Part shown: positions 13,356 through 21,522 of the stretch, one piece after another
Numbering within the stretch: the first letter of the stretch is position 1
How the letters are laid out: each line of letters starts with the position of its first letter
From: Pseudanabaena sp. PCC 7367
GTDB lineage: Bacteria; Cyanobacteriota; Cyanobacteriia; Pseudanabaenales; Pseudanabaenaceae
DNA: 64,000 bases
NCBI RefSeq assembly: GCF_000317065.1
Contig: NC_019701.1
Location: 4,350,001-4,414,000 of the forward strand
Reading direction: 5' to 3'
The notes under the pieces: generated by a model
Told to the model about the DNA's origin: nothing
What the model saw: the letters and a program-made list of their open reading frames with translations, nothing else
Database searches by the model: none
Translations under genes and position numbers: made by a program

Positions 13356-13396
13356 TAAGCATAGGCAAAGACTGAAATTCAATCTTCCTATGCTTA
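13356..13396 (-). terminator. Long stem-loop downstream of the 64-residue protein gene
   Basis: TAAGCATAGG (13356-13365) pairs perfectly with CCTATGCTTA (13387-13396), and inner bases AAAGA/TCTT can add to the stem. Read on the minus strand the stem is followed by the T-rich ATTTGTTGT. This fits a terminator for the small gene at 13538-13732. Confidence 0.6.
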
Positions 13397-13537: not shown

Positions 13538-13732
13538 TTATGCAGCAAAAAGCGCAACCTCAACGGCACCAGCAATCACAACCGACAACAAACCAATGGT
13601 TAGATAACGACCGATCATGGGATTCTCTCCTAGGAATGTATCTGCTTGACTGGCAGTGAAAAACAATGACCAGGCTTTGGTGGCATTGATGCTTTTGAAG
13701 CTATTGAAATCGGCGGTAAAAATGGGAGCCAT
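13538..13732 (-). CDS. Tiny single-helix protein, paralogue of the 17885 gene
   Basis: 64 residues. A hydrophilic N-terminal part with the block INATKAWSLFFT (about 15-26) is followed by one C-terminal hydrophobic helix (about 43-63). GAGAGGA a few bases upstream of the ATG at 13732 is a good ribosome binding site. The block D8-D31 is identical at 17 of 24 positions to D23-D46 of the 82-residue protein at 17885-18133. Size, a single helix and strong translation signals are typical of small photosynthetic-complex subunits, but I do not recognise the family and name no function. A stem-loop terminator follows. Confidence 0.75.
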   Translation of the reverse strand: MAPIFTADFNSFKSINATKAWSLFFTASQADTFLGENPMIGRYLTIGLLSVVIAGAVEVALFAA

Positions 13733-13980
13733 GTTGTCCTCTCGTAAAAATAAAAAAAGTAAGGTAAGTTAGCAGGCGCTCTAATAGTTAGATAACTGGA
13801 TAGTTGGTAATGGTAGGGGTTAGTTTGAATAGCGATCGCTGATAATTATCAGCAAACTAACGATCGCAATCAAGTAACCAATTCAAGGCTGCAATTCAGC
13901 AATGAATATTGAAATAGTTTTGCAATCATCAGTATTGTTAACTTATGTTGCGCAACTTGACTACAAGCTAACACAACTAA

Positions 13981-14007
13981 ACCCGCTGCTCAATCATTGC
14001 GGCGGGT
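13981..14007 (-). terminator. Possible terminator downstream of pfkA
   Basis: ACCCGC (13981-13986) and GCGGGT (14002-14007) form a G+C-rich 6-bp stem. On the minus strand it is followed by TTAGTTGTGTT, a weak T-rich stretch, about 70 bases after the pfkA stop. Confidence 0.45.
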
Positions 14008-14079
14008 AAACTAGCTATTTATATCTGCTGGCTTAGGTGTTTTTGCTCTATTGGCCTGGGGCTATCAAAAAATGGTGAC

Positions 14080-15204
14080 CTAGACTACCGAACTTTCGCC
14101 ATCATGCTGCGATTGGATATTTTCCACCTCACCAATATATGCGCCTACCCCCAAAGCGGTTTTGACCAGGGTGCCATCTACTTCCACGGCACGATACTGG
14201 GCAATCGCGTCGGCGATCGGCACATCCACAACCTGGCGTTGCTGCCATGCCACCATCCGATCGAATCTTTCTTCGGCAATTAGATCCACCACCCGCACGC
14301 CGAATGCAGTACCAATCAAGCGATCCATTGGTGAGGGTTTACCGCCCCGTTGCAGATGCCCCAGGGTGGTAACGCGAGTTTCTGCACCAGTACAGACACT
14401 AATGCGATCGGCAATATACTGGCCAATCCCACCATACAAAGATTGTCCCAGGCTATTAATAAACTTGACTGGCTCCCCTGTTTCGGTTTTGACTGCCTCC
14501 GCTACCACCACCAAACTATGATTGCGCCCCCGCTTAGCTCGATCTTCAATTCGATGGCAAAGCTTGTCCATGCTGTAGGGGATTTCGGGGATTAAAATCG
14601 CATCGGCTCCACCAGCGATCCCAGCACTAATTGCAATGTGTCCAGCATCCCGCCCCATTACTTCCAGAATCATCACCCGGCTGTGGCTGGCAGCGGTATA
14701 GTTAAGTCGATCGAGCGCTTCGGTGGCCACTTCTACGGCAGTAATAAAGCCGATCGAGCTTTCGGTAGCACCCAGATCATTGTCGATCGTTTTGGGTACC
14801 GCCACCAAATTCCAATTTCCCTGCTGGGCTAGTTTGCTCAAAATTGCCAAACTACCATCACCGCCAATCCCAATTAAGGCATCTAGCTCTAGCTCATGAT
14901 AGCCATTGGTAATTTCGTGGGAGCGATCGAGCAAACTACCGTCGGGCATCGGAAATGCAAAGGGATTGCCCTTATTGGTGGTGCCTAAAATTGTGCCACC
15001 ATAGCGCAAAATGCCAGAAATTCGCTTTAGGTCAAGCAACTCAGCATCAACCGGACGCGACATTAGTCCCAGGGTGGAATCTCTGATTCCAAACACGTCC
15101 ATGTTGTAATGACGTGCCCGATGGACAACCGCCCTAGTAACTGCATTCAAGCCACCGCAATCGCCGCCACTGGTGAGAATGCCAATCCGTTTCCGTTGTG
15201 TCAT
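14080..15204 (-). CDS. pfkA: 6-phosphofructokinase, probably ATP-dependent
   Basis: 374 residues. GGDCGGLN (13-20), GGTILGTTNKGNPF (69-82), GGDGS (114-118) and PKTIDND (137-143) define the PFK fold and active site. The phosphoryl-donor positions carry Gly117 (as in ATP enzymes; PPi enzymes have Asp) and Lys138 (bacterial ATP enzymes have Gly; PPi and plant-type ATP enzymes have Lys). The mixed pair matches plant/cyanobacterial-type enzymes usually annotated as ATP-dependent. It phosphorylates fructose 6-phosphate in glycolysis. Single-gene unit with a possible terminator behind it. Confidence 0.92.
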   Translation of the reverse strand: MTQRKRIGILTSGGDCGGLNAVTRAVVHRARHYNMDVFGIRDSTLGLMSRPVDAELLDLKRISGILRYGGTILGTTNKGNPFAFPMPDGSLLDRSHEITNGYHELELDALIGIGGDGSLAILSKLAQQGNWNLVAVPKTIDNDLGATESSIGFITAVEVATEALDRLNYTAASHSRVMILEVMGRDAGHIAISAGIAGGADAILIPEIPYSMDKLCHRIEDRAKRGRNHSLVVVAEAVKTETGEPVKFINSLGQSLYGGIGQYIADRISVCTGAETRVTTLGHLQRGGKPSPMDRLIGTAFGVRVVDLIAEERFDRMVAWQQRQVVDVPIADAIAQYRAVEVDGTLVKTALGVGAYIGEVENIQSQHDGESSVV

Positions 15205-15727
15205 AGGTTGAGTTACCGACTATATCTACTTATTTATTGAATTTAATTTATAAATTGAATTGAGTGAATCAAGGCAATTATGGGGAGCGAAGTTTGGAAC
15301 CAATCGCAACCTGACATCGCAACCTGAACTTGAAATTAGGCGATTATTAAGCCTCTGCTTCTACGCTAGTATCTTCTCAAACAAGTTCAAGCAAGGTACT
15401 GTACAAAAATTGGGCTAACTATCAGGAATTGCATCCAAGCGATCGTTATTCTTGCCCAATTGGTTACTTGAAACCGCACTAAGTTGCCAATCTCTTACGA
15501 TTGTTTTTGTCAAAAACTACCTTGGTATGAGGTATAGATGAAGATAAACCCTGAAGCTGTAATGATTGCTATATCGTTGGCCAGGATCTACAGGATCTAT
15601 TTGATGCGCTAACGAAATTATCGTCAATAATGGGATGGACGGGTAAAATTGCGGTTTATCTTTAGGATCACTGAGCCTGCCCCGAAAACTATTCCTGTCT
15701 TGCTAATAGCTGAATTATTTGGATTTT
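15205..15727. other. Divergent spacer between pfkA and the CRR6-like gene
   Basis: About 520 bases that must hold the promoters of both divergent genes. No clear box, operator or RNA could be identified. Confidence 0.45.
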
Positions 15728-16222
15728 ATGTCTACCGTAATAAATGTAAATGCCGATTGCATCGCCCAAATTGACATTGCCCCAGCGCGGGTAGTGGTGG
15801 ATAAATTATTAGCAACGATCGCTACGACCAATGGGGCGATCGCCACTCTGCCAGAAGATCAGGCGATCAAATTTAATATTATGTTTCCCCAAGAACCCAC
15901 CGACCCCCGTGAACTATCGGAAATTCCCGAAATTCGACTCTGGTTTATTCGGCTGGACGCGGTTTATCCCTGGCTGCCCTATTATCTCGATTGGCGTGAA
16001 GGCGAATTAACCCGCTATGCGGCGATGCTGGTGCCCCATGAATTCAAGAAAGCTGAGGGGATTGAGTTTAATGTGGAGGCGATCCAGATTTTTGTGATGC
16101 AAAAGGTGTTTATGATCCATGATTGGCTCGGACAGCAGGGCAGTAGTAATACGGCCAAGCTAAAACAAATGTCCCAGGCTCTGGGGTACGAGATCGATGC
16201 TGAGTTCTTTGAATTGCTATAG
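15728..16222 (+). CDS. CRR6-like NDH-1 assembly factor (DUF1817)
   Basis: 164 residues from the ATG at 15728; a TTG three codons upstream is possible. The central block IRLWFIRLDAVYPWLPYYLD followed by WREGELTRYAAMLVPHEF is the recognisable core of the cyanobacterial/plastid CRR6 family. CRR6 is needed to assemble the hydrophilic arm of the photosynthetic NDH-1 complex and is soluble. Length fits the cyanobacterial members. moeA starts 20 bases downstream, so the two may be co-transcribed although no functional link is known. Identification is by remembered motif, not by a search. Confidence 0.78.
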   Translation: MSTVINVNADCIAQIDIAPARVVVDKLLATIATTNGAIATLPEDQAIKFNIMFPQEPTDPRELSEIPEIRLWFIRLDAVYPWLPYYLDWREGELTRYAAMLVPHEFKKAEGIEFNVEAIQIFVMQKVFMIHDWLGQQGSSNTAKLKQMSQALGYEIDAEFFELL

Positions 16223-16242
16223 AAAATTGCTATAGAAACTAT

Positions 16243-17523
16243 ATGATTCCGGTTAGTGAGGCTGCGCAAATTATCCTCAATCTGGCGCGATCGCCTGATG
16301 CCAAGCAAGAACAAAATATTGAACAGATACAACTATCCCATGCATTAGGGCGGGTATTGGCGCAAGATCTAGTCAGCGATCCCTTGCCAGCATGGCCTAA
16401 CTCGGCAATGGATGGCTATGCACTACGCCACGTAGATCTAGAACAATATCAACAGTTACAAATAGTAGAAACGATCGCCGCCGCTGGGGAAGTAATCGCC
16501 GTAACCATTCAACCAGGGCAATGTATGCGGATCTTTACTGGGGGGATGTTGCCTGCTGGTGCTGATACGGTGGTGATGCAAGAGGAAACAATCCGCCAGG
16601 GCGATCGGCTAGAGTTAAAAACTCAACCAAAGTTAGCAGCATATGTGCGGCAGCGAGGTAGTTATTATGATGGCAAGCAACCATTAATCCAGCAGGGTAG
16701 CAAAATTAGCGCCACCGAAATTGGGCTGTTGGCTGCCATATCACGGGCAAAGGTGAAAGTACATCGCTTACCAAGGGTGGCGATCTTTTCCACTGGCAAC
16801 GAGTTAGTCGAGCTAGCCGCAAATGGCTCATCTATAAATACAGGATCAAAAAATACAGCATTAAAGCCAGGTCAAATTATAGATTCTAATAATCATGCGC
16901 TGACGGCTTTGGTGAATCAAGCGGGGGCGATCGCTCAACCTTTGGGGATTGTGTCCGATCGAGAAGCCGATCTCAAAGCGATGATTCAAACTGCAATTGC
17001 AAAAGCCGATCTAGTCATTTCCTCCGGTGGCGTATCGGTGGGTGATTATGACCTGGTCGATCGAGTCTTAGCCTCATTGGGCGCAATGATCCATGTGCGT
17101 GCCTGCGCGATCAAGCCTGGTAAACCCTTGACCGTGGCCACGATCGAACGAGCCGATCGCCAACCTTGTTTATATTTTGGTTTGCCTGGGAATCCAGCCT
17201 CGGCAATGGTGTGTTTTTGGCGGTTTATCAAAGGAGCGATCGCTAAGCTGCGGGGCGAGGCTGAGGCCAACTGGCAACCGCGTTTCATTCATGCCATTAC
17301 CACCGCCGATTTAAACGCCCAGGGTCGCCGCGAAACTTATCTCTGGGGCAAGCTCAGAATTGAAACAAGTGCAAAGGATAAATCTGAATGGCACTTCGAT
17401 CCAGCCCCCAATCACATTTCTGGCAATTTGGTTAGTCTGGCGGGTACTGATGCGCTGGCGGTTTTAAAAATCAATCAAACCTATGTCCCTGCTGGCGATC
17501 GGGTATTGGTAATGCTGGTATAG
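16243..17523 (+). CDS. moeA: Molybdopterin molybdenumtransferase
   Basis: 426 residues. Clear MoeA motifs: PAWPNSAMDGYA near 50, IFTGGMLPAGADTVVMQEE near 92, FSTGNELVE near 185, SSGGVSVGDYDLV near 265 and GLPGNPASAMVCFW near 318. It inserts molybdate into adenylylated molybdopterin to finish the molybdenum cofactor, needed for example by nitrate reductase. The family length is about 400. It has an insert (around residues 195-215, low-complexity Asn/Ser/Lys) after GNELVE. No other moa/moe genes lie nearby. Confidence 0.93.
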   Translation: MIPVSEAAQIILNLARSPDAKQEQNIEQIQLSHALGRVLAQDLVSDPLPAWPNSAMDGYALRHVDLEQYQQLQIVETIAAAGEVIAVTIQPGQCMRIFTGGMLPAGADTVVMQEETIRQGDRLELKTQPKLAAYVRQRGSYYDGKQPLIQQGSKISATEIGLLAAISRAKVKVHRLPRVAIFSTGNELVELAANGSSINTGSKNTALKPGQIIDSNNHALTALVNQAGAIAQPLGIVSDREADLKAMIQTAIAKADLVISSGGVSVGDYDLVDRVLASLGAMIHVRACAIKPGKPLTVATIERADRQPCLYFGLPGNPASAMVCFWRFIKGAIAKLRGEAEANWQPRFIHAITTADLNAQGRRETYLWGKLRIETSAKDKSEWHFDPAPNHISGNLVSLAGTDALAVLKINQTYVPAGDRVLVMLV

Positions 17524-17884
17524 CATCAGATTTCAAATTAAATCCAATCTAAGATTACTCCCAATCGTTATCTGGCATAGTGATATGCGTCTGAACTGCA
17601 AAATCTGCGATCGAGATTTGCATCGGATCTCAAGGAGCGATCGCCTTAATTCATATCATTCATTTCAATTATTATTGCTTGATCCTATATTATTTCTTGA
17701 TCCTATGCCATTTAGACTAGCTGGCATATGCCCAATGAAATAGGCACTACCTCGGTTGAAATACTTGCCAATACTGCGATCCACCACAAATGACAGATTG
17801 CGGCACCAGGGTTTAAGTTGCTAATCTTTACATAACTTAAACAAAGCTTTTCAAGCAAATCAAATCCTGGAAGGAGGAAAAATT
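17524..17884. other. Spacer and leader of the 82-residue protein gene
   Basis: About 360 bases. Near 17685-17707 the phrase TTGATCCTAT occurs twice. A 9-bp inverted repeat at 17811-17842 lies in the probable leader of the next gene, annotated separately. Confidence 0.5.
17811..17842 (+). promoter_or_regulatory. 9-bp inverted repeat in the leader of the 82-residue protein gene
   Basis: GTTTAAGTT (17811-17819) and AACTTAAAC (17834-17842) are perfect inverted copies separated by 14 bases, ending 42 bases before the ATG. It could be an operator or an RNA hairpin that protects or regulates the transcript. No similar element precedes the paralogue at 13732. Confidence 0.45.
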
Positions 17885-18133
17885 ATGGCTAAGCGTACTG
17901 GTTTTAATTATGAAGGTGACAATCGTGATGTGGCGGTTGCCTTCCGCGAGGACTTCAACAACTTCACCCCAATCAACGCCACCCAAGCCTGGTCCTTATT
18001 CTTCACAGGTAGTAAGGAAGACTATGCGATCGGCCTGAGCGATCAAGCTGGTCAGTTCTGGACTCAATCTTTGATTGGTGTCGTAGCCGCCGGTGTCCTG
18101 GGTGTGATTGTGTTCCAAGGTTTCCTTGCCTAA
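17885..18133 (+). CDS. Small single-helix protein, paralogue of the 13538 gene
   Basis: 82 residues. AAGGAGG seven bases upstream of the ATG is a near-perfect ribosome binding site, suggesting strong expression. The protein has a charged N-terminal part, the block INATQAWSLFFTG (30-42) shared with the 64-residue paralogue, and one hydrophobic C-terminal helix (about 58-80). It probably sits in the thylakoid or inner membrane with the shared motif on the cytoplasmic side. A good terminator follows, so it is monocistronic. The family is not recognised; a small subunit of a photosynthetic or respiratory complex is speculation. Confidence 0.8.
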   Translation: MAKRTGFNYEGDNRDVAVAFREDFNNFTPINATQAWSLFFTGSKEDYAIGLSDQAGQFWTQSLIGVVAAGVLGVIVFQGFLA

Positions 18134-18321: not shown

Positions 18322-18351
18322 GAGCCGAGCATATGTCCGGCTCCTTTTTTT
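18322..18351 (+). terminator. Rho-independent terminator
   Basis: GAGCCG (18322-18327) pairs with CGGCTC (18338-18343) and is followed by CTTTTTTT. It closes the 82-residue protein transcript. Confidence 0.85.
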
Positions 18352-20800: not shown

Positions 20801-21112
20801 ATGGATACATCTAAGCTAACTTGTCCAAGATGCAATTCACTCAAAATTGTCAAAAATGGCAAAATTCACAACGGTAAACAAAACTTCAAATGTAAACAAT
20901 GCAATAGACAATTTGTAGCCAATTCTAAGAAGAAATATATCGCTAATGAGACTAAAGCTCAAATCGACAAGCTTCTGCTAGAGAGGGTTTCACTCGCAGG
21001 TATTGCCAGAGTTGTAGGTGTATCACCAAGATGGCTACAGCAATATGTTAATCACAAATATGCTCAAGTGCCCCAACAAGTGCAGGTACAGGCTAAAAAA
21101 AAGGGCACTTAA
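20801..21112 (+). CDS. IS1-family InsA-like protein (first frame of frameshifted transposase)
   Basis: 103 residues. The N-terminal zinc finger is CPRC...CKQC (residues 8-11 and 33-36), followed by a helix-turn-helix-like segment (about 64-86, VSLAGIARVVGVSPRWLQQYV). In IS1 this product binds the ends and, when alone, represses transposition. Near its end at 21095-21102 is an A8 run. A -1 slip there continues directly into the second frame as GHLTIQMDELW, giving the fused transposase. The frame otherwise stops with a TAA at 21110-21112. Confidence 0.9.
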   Translation: MDTSKLTCPRCNSLKIVKNGKIHNGKQNFKCKQCNRQFVANSKKKYIANETKAQIDKLLLERVSLAGIARVVGVSPRWLQQYVNHKYAQVPQQVQVQAKKKGT

Positions 21113-21120
21113 CCATTCAA

Positions 21121-21522
21121 ATGGATGAGCTGTGGTCTTTTGTAGGCAAGAAACGAGTCAAGGTTTGGGTTTGGTTAGCTATAGATGTTAATACTAAGGA
21201 GATCGTAGGAGTGTATATCGGTTCTAGAGATGAGGTTGGTGCTCAAGGATTATGGCAGTCTTTACCACCCGTTTATCGACAATGTGCGGTTTGTTACACT
21301 GATTTCTGGCGTGCCTATGCTCAGGTAGTTCCGAGTATGCGTCATCAACCAGTGGACAAAGGTTCAGGCTTGACAAACAAAATTGAGCGATTTAATTGCA
21401 CTCTTAGGCAAAGAGCTTCAAGACTGGTTCGCAAATCTCTTTCTTTCTCGAAAAAGTTAGCTAACCATGTTGGCGCTATCTGGTTATTTGTGCATCATTA
21501 CAACTCATCCTTACTTGTATAG
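21121..21522 (+). CDS. IS1-family InsB-like catalytic domain (second frame)
   Basis: 133 residues from the first ATG, normally made as an extension of InsA by -1 frameshifting at the A8 run. Catalytic DDE residues are visible: Asp in MDELWSFVG, Asp in YTDFWRAY and Glu in NKIERFN, followed by the LRQRASRLVRKSLSFSK segment typical of IS1. No internal stop, so the element looks intact and may be active. Confidence 0.9.
   Translation: MDELWSFVGKKRVKVWVWLAIDVNTKEIVGVYIGSRDEVGAQGLWQSLPPVYRQCAVCYTDFWRAYAQVVPSMRHQPVDKGSGLTNKIERFNCTLRQRASRLVRKSLSFSKKLANHVGAIWLFVHHYNSSLLV

Follow-up and report, generated by a model that had tools for sequence, protein, structure and literature searches.

What are two tiny, related one-helix proteins doing in the genome of the cyanobacterium Pseudanabaena sp. 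PCC 7367? Their genes lie in a window of 64,000 nucleotides (assembly GCF_000317065.1, contig NC_019701.1, positions 4,350,001 to 4,414,000 of the forward strand), in which they occupy 13538-13732 on the minus strand (64 amino acids) and 17885-18133 on the plus strand (82 amino acids), each open reading frame (ORF) starting with ATG upon translation. An earlier inspection of the letters, hereafter the sequence-only reading, did not recognise the family and took it for a possibly undescribed subunit or assembly factor. The analysis presented here points to the LilA family and, with a probability of roughly 0.65, to stress-induced accessories of HliA/HliB at photosystem II, not constitutive subunits.

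Two selected paralogues in one genome

The proteins form a paralogous pair, as the sequence-only reading had it. Seventeen of 24 residues, counted by eye, are identical between FTADFNSFKSINATKAWSLFFTAS and FREDFNNFTPINATQAWSLFFTGS, and BLASTP aligned the short and the long protein with 29 of 62 identical residues (47%); because the E value is 1e-17, the likeness is not due to chance. A genome search returned only these two family copies, the third row being noise (E = 1.14). Common to both are the pattern F-x3-FN-x4-IN-A-T-(Q/K)-AWSLFFT, then a linker containing D and (L/I)G and a single hydrophobic helix; about 16 N-terminal residues of the long protein are absent from the short one. The family block pattern is F-x3-FN-x4-IN-A-x-QAWSLFFT-x4-D, followed by one membrane helix. 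The features of the two genes are as follows.

13356-13396, minus strand: terminator-like hairpin 3' of the short gene (folding, z = -4.57; missed by the consensus scan)
13538-13732, minus strand: short LilA-family protein, 64 amino acids, without the N-terminal segment of the long form (translation, BLASTP; short clade, support 100/100)
13541-13597, minus strand: membrane helix predicted at residues 46-64 of the short protein from the Kyte-Doolittle maximum
13655-13690, minus strand: INATKAWSLFFT block of the short protein, residues 15-26 (translation, column conservation)
13737-13742, minus strand: moderate ribosome-binding site AGAGGA of the short gene (read directly from the sequence)
17817-17834, plus strand: HLR1-like element GTTGCTAATCTTTACATA, 14 of 16 consensus positions, at -68 of the long gene (HLR1 scoring)
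17871-17877, plus strand: strong ribosome-binding site AAGGAGG of the long gene (read directly from the sequence)
17885-18133, plus strand: long LilA-family protein, 82 amino acids (translation, BLASTP; long Pseudanabaenaceae clade, support 98/98)
17972-18007, plus strand: INATQAWSLFFT block of the long protein, residues 30-41, with a short helix at 32-40 in the model (AlphaFold2, conservation)
18041-18127, plus strand: long C-terminal helix of the long protein, spanning model residues 53-81 with a hydrophobic core at 63-81 (AlphaFold2, Kyte-Doolittle)
18322-18343, plus strand: terminator-like hairpin and T run 3' of the long gene (folding; missed by the consensus scan)

Each protein has a single hydrophobic stretch, located at the C-terminus, whose highest Kyte-Doolittle mean over 19 residues is 2.31 (short) or 2.39 (long), and an AlphaFold2 model of the long protein built from 25 sequences contains a short helix at residues 32-40 and a long one at residues 53-81 (pLDDT 71.6, pTM 0.42). 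Among 94 distinct homologues (effective number 52; fragments below 55 amino acids were excluded from this set, which also served for the tree and for substitution rates), F20, F24, A35 and W36 are invariant and S37 is almost so. Mean column entropy is 0.56 bits in the INATxAWSLFFT block vs 2.28 bits in the helix, which bears out the earlier observation that the soluble-side block is the more conserved part. Median ratios of non-synonymous to synonymous substitution (dN/dS) are 0.10 for long forms (41 usable pairs) and 0.08 for short forms (56 usable pairs); therefore both forms are selected proteins, on which purifying selection acts.

The strong ribosome-binding sites and separate terminators ascribed to both genes survived in part. 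The long gene has AAGGAGG, whereas the AGAGGA of the short gene is only moderate. Folding places a hairpin about 140 bases past the stop codon of the short gene (z = -4.57 for an 81-nt stretch) and another, followed by seven T, about 190 bases past that of the long gene (z = -2.01 for a 66-nt stretch), but a consensus terminator scan found nothing at the 3' side of either window gene.

The family almost certainly corresponds to LilA

Three Synechocystis-type genomes (loci L120, L123 and L209) share the gene order MatE, fatty-acid-desaturase-family protein, HliB-type high-light-inducible protein (HLIP), family gene and ECF sigma factor, as labelled with Pfam in L123. The hliB-lilA operon is ssr2595-slr1544 (PMC7372957) and SigG is Slr1545 (PMC2758279). 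Since the family gene, flanked by HliB-type and ECF sigma genes, mirrors slr1544 (lilA) in the order ssr2595 (hliB), slr1544 and slr1545 (sigG), the family is almost certainly LilA (Slr1544) of Synechocystis sp. PCC 6803, named here by gene position. The window proteins share one profile (A2) with the Synechocystis-type members. The family is thus already named in print, although little studied, and the suggestion that it might be undescribed is not supported. In Synechocystis, LilA is reported to be induced under high light and under most stresses (cited literature) and to be associated with HliB/HliC (PMC7496141, citing Kufryk 2008), and scpB, scpD and lilA reportedly showed the strongest up-regulation in one microarray experiment under high light and high CO2 (PMC6331805). 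In contrast to Slr1544, whose operon is preceded by HLR1 in the genomes sharing its gene order, each window copy is a solitary gene; the long one still has an HLR1-like element, and the short one has neither this element nor the roughly 16 N-terminal residues.

Synteny therefore puts both proteins in a named family, but no curated model does: neither reaches the cut-off of any model in Pfam and NCBIfam, and the LilA family has no model in either. MgtS-like rows in these collections (E = 0.06 and 0.024) and PHROGs rows (E = 0.13 and 0.19) were rejected as noise, and three Erwinia phage rows from a phage tblastn search (E = 5) were discarded as chance. The PDB holds no credible match by sequence or by family profile, the sole row, at E = 0.75, being noise. 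Psb34 (Ssl1498 family) is likewise small, has one helix and is linked to the assembly of photosystem II, and a Psb34-like gene adjoins the family gene in L038 and L040. However, the family proteins fail the cut-off of its curated model, NF033486.

LilA genes often adjoin HLIP genes across cyanobacterial families

The neighbourhood of the family was sampled in 60 regions of at most 18 kb around its members and compared with 40 control regions taken at displaced positions in those genomes. Of the 60 family regions, 32 contain an HLIP ORF vs 1 of 40 controls (Fisher p = 1.7e-8, uncorrected for relatedness). In 31 of these 32 the HLIP shares the strand of the family gene and is at most 200 bp away, 29 times upstream and twice downstream, and in the remaining one it is 5.4 kb off; two of the 31 (L143 and L150) look like degenerate remnants. 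Adjacent hli-family pairs span at least eight GTDB families (f7, f21, f22, f25, f27, f32, f33 and f37). The upstream HLIPs carry an xNNFAIEP...YVD leader, and we take most of them to be of the HliA/HliB kind. In 20 of the 48 LilA-positive genomes of the phylum-wide survey described below and 20 negative ones, picked by hand and not at random, an HliA/B-type protein (E <= 1e-12) occurs in 19 of 20 positive vs 12 of 20 negative genomes (p = 0.02); in this sample LilA without HliA/B is rare and HliA/B without LilA is frequent.

Some loci depart from the simple pair. In Oscillatoria sp. SIO1A7 (L037:7956-9085) an HLIP with a Psb34/HliA-like leader stands in tandem between two family genes that encode identical proteins, which suggests a very recent duplication. 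In Fischerella (L041:7656-9469) and in a genome of family f22 (L143), the family gene stands between a decayed HliA/B-like remnant ahead of it and an intact HLIP behind it, a layout in which the operon partner may have been replaced; in L041 an OCP gene comes after the intact HLIP.

HLR1-like elements and the two window copies

The HLR1 consensus was taken from PMC11633204. The score of a gene is its best match over 16 defined positions in the 200 bases upstream on both strands, obtained for 49 of the 60 family genes and for 26 leading hli genes, the remaining start codons not having been placed. A score of at least 14 was reached by 24 of the 26 leading hli genes, with the site usually around -50, vs 13 of 285 controls (p = 2e-24), by 14 of the 25 family genes that no hli gene leads (p = 9e-11; both p values uncorrected for relatedness) and by none of the 24 family genes internal to hli operons. 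Perfect elements (16/16) precede 10 of 26, 6 of 25 and 0 of 24 genes in these groups, respectively, and none of the 285 controls. Among the Pseudanabaenaceae long copies listed, the eleven besides the window's all reach 14 or more between -120 and -30, ten of them on the opposite strand; the window long copy scores 14 at -68, on the same strand as the 16/16 site of L004 and almost at its place (-67). Of 19 short copies, a set in which the window's is counted, 4 reach 14.

Because the long window copy has its score of 14 at -68 vs 11 for the short one, the former probably belongs to the predicted RpaB regulon and the latter probably lies outside it. HLIP neighbours and HLR1 elements together support the link to the photosynthetic membrane that the sequence-only reading had drawn.

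LilA is not a chlorophyll a/b-binding protein by profile

The published label must be considered here, since LilA is called light-harvesting-like and a member of the extended family in print (PMC7372957 among others). This label and the operons with hli genes would fit a divergent, pigment-binding one-helix protein of the chlorophyll a/b-binding (CAB) type, and LilA does resemble the HLIP/SCP family (HliA-HliD, PF00504) in small size, single helix, high-light-type promoter elements and shared operons. However, hhalign of 28 family members against 14 HLIPs gave a probability of 0.4% without a sensible alignment of the CAB motif, PF00504 matched none of the five members scanned, and the ExxNxR pigment motif of the CAB helix is absent from the family, in which the helix is the least conserved part. 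We therefore regard pigment binding of this kind as improbable. By profile comparison, LilA is not of the CAB type, and by sequence 'light-harvesting-like' describes its company and not its kinship; a remote shared origin of LilA and HLIPs is still possible.

Patchy distribution and an ancient split

In an even draw across the cyanobacterial phylum, 48 of 386 genomes have a family match at E <= 0.001. A broader profile (28 rows vs 12) raised this only to 50, the two additional genomes holding a fragment or noise; therefore the patchiness is not due to a narrow first profile. Of 54 candidate stretches, 34 were borne out by a contig scan of genomes. Among the named carriers are Pseudanabaena, Fischerella thermalis PCC 7521, Nostoc sp. 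FACHB-973, Oscillatoria sp. SIO1A7 and Picosynechococcus PCC 7117.

This distribution bears on the role that the sequence-only reading had favoured, that of a constitutive, highly expressed low-mass subunit of photosystem I, photosystem II or NDH-1. The single helix, the terminator-like hairpins and the strong ribosome site of the long gene are what such a subunit might show, but 338 of the 386 genomes are without a match, no PDB chain matches even the family profile, and HLR1-type stress promoters precede many copies, so this role is unlikely, with perhaps one chance in ten.

The phylogenetic tree rests on 79 columns, so many forks are unresolved. The short window copy belongs to a clade of 19 rows (support 100/100), all but two of them short forms (17). 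The long copy, on a long end branch (0.7), groups apart from it in a clade of 13 Pseudanabaenaceae rows (98/98). Because each falls in its own well-supported clade, the two are old paralogues and not the outcome of a recent duplication, and the long/short split in Pseudanabaena-type genomes is ancient. Elsewhere in the tree, L151 and L152 (genomes G243 and G119) are highly divergent second copies in Picosynechococcus-type genomes (branch length 1.57).

Other neighbours and remaining alternatives

Several Nostocales loci have OCP, NblA, allophycocyanin-alpha-like and FtsH-like genes (the last labelled by eye) near the family gene. These would suit a membrane anchor or adaptor for phycobilisome detachment or turnover in place of photosystem II repair; such surroundings were seen only in a few Nostocales loci, whereas an HLIP is the common neighbour across lineages, and we give this role as little credence as that of a constitutive subunit. 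Islands with the family gene, NblA and an allophycocyanin-alpha-like gene occur at L036:5943-9953, L039:7926-9260 and L064:673-4223, some with OCP or an FtsH-like protease. GlnB-like, Tat-signal sulfite-dehydrogenase-like and P-type ATPase-like genes (labels partly by eye) recur beside the short copy across the Pseudanabaena lineage; they do not adjoin the window copy, and no function was drawn from them.

On Brasilonema and Nostoc contigs (L064-L066), family genes are apparently broken past the QAWSLFFT block. Although neither window copy retains an operon and these relatives are broken, low dN/dS in both groups and intact ribosome sites and blocks make it very improbable that the window copies are functionless relics. 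At 20801-21522 of the window, two adjoining ORFs of 103 and 133 amino acids form what we presume, by eye, to be an IS1-type transposase pair.

Discussion

HliA and HliB protect photosystem II in assembly and repair, and to our knowledge the mechanism of their placement and release is unclear. We propose that the LilA family consists of small thylakoid proteins, mostly operon partners of HliA/HliB-type HLIPs, which strong light would free from RpaB/HLR1 repression. The conserved block may fold into a short amphipathic helix along the stromal face of the membrane, and the C-terminal helix may pack against HliA/HliB or CP47. Such packing would put LilA at photosystem II under repair, where it could help to recruit or stabilise the HLIP pair. 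The long window copy retains a light-stress-type promoter element; the short copy is an old paralogue without the N-terminus or the element and is therefore probably expressed differently. Thylakoid location, topology and binding partner are predictions in this scheme, as is the transfer of the reported LilA function to both window copies.

Several points weigh against the proposed accessory role. The name rests on synteny. No HLIP was found within the stretch in 28 of 60 family regions, and neither window copy adjoins an HLIP gene among the ORFs around it; the HLIPs of this genome, with at least one HliA/B-like protein (L201), are encoded elsewhere. The 14/16 score of the long copy, attained also by 13 of 285 controls, is weak taken alone, and the short copy scores only 11/16 within -120 to -30, without a close element. 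Moreover, the structure model of the long protein is of moderate confidence.

Tentatively, and at somewhat less than even odds, we go further and regard LilA as a separate family rather than light-harvesting kin, namely a dedicated, non-pigment-binding partner of HliA/HliB in an HLR1-controlled operon conserved in at least eight cyanobacterial families. In Pseudanabaena-type genomes it would have divided long ago into a paralogue that stayed in the light-stress regulon and another that lost both its N-terminus and this regulation. New here are the sequence distinctness from HLIPs, the breadth of the hli-lilA operon, HLR1 before stand-alone copies and the ancient long/short split; no publication on these four points was found in the open literature, where subscription papers are few.

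The published light-harvesting-like label is not borne out by profile comparison. A widespread operon partner with an almost invariant soluble-side QAWSLFF motif offers a specific target for mutagenesis and pull-down, and the Pseudanabaena-type paralogues provide a natural comparison between stress-regulated and differently regulated copies.

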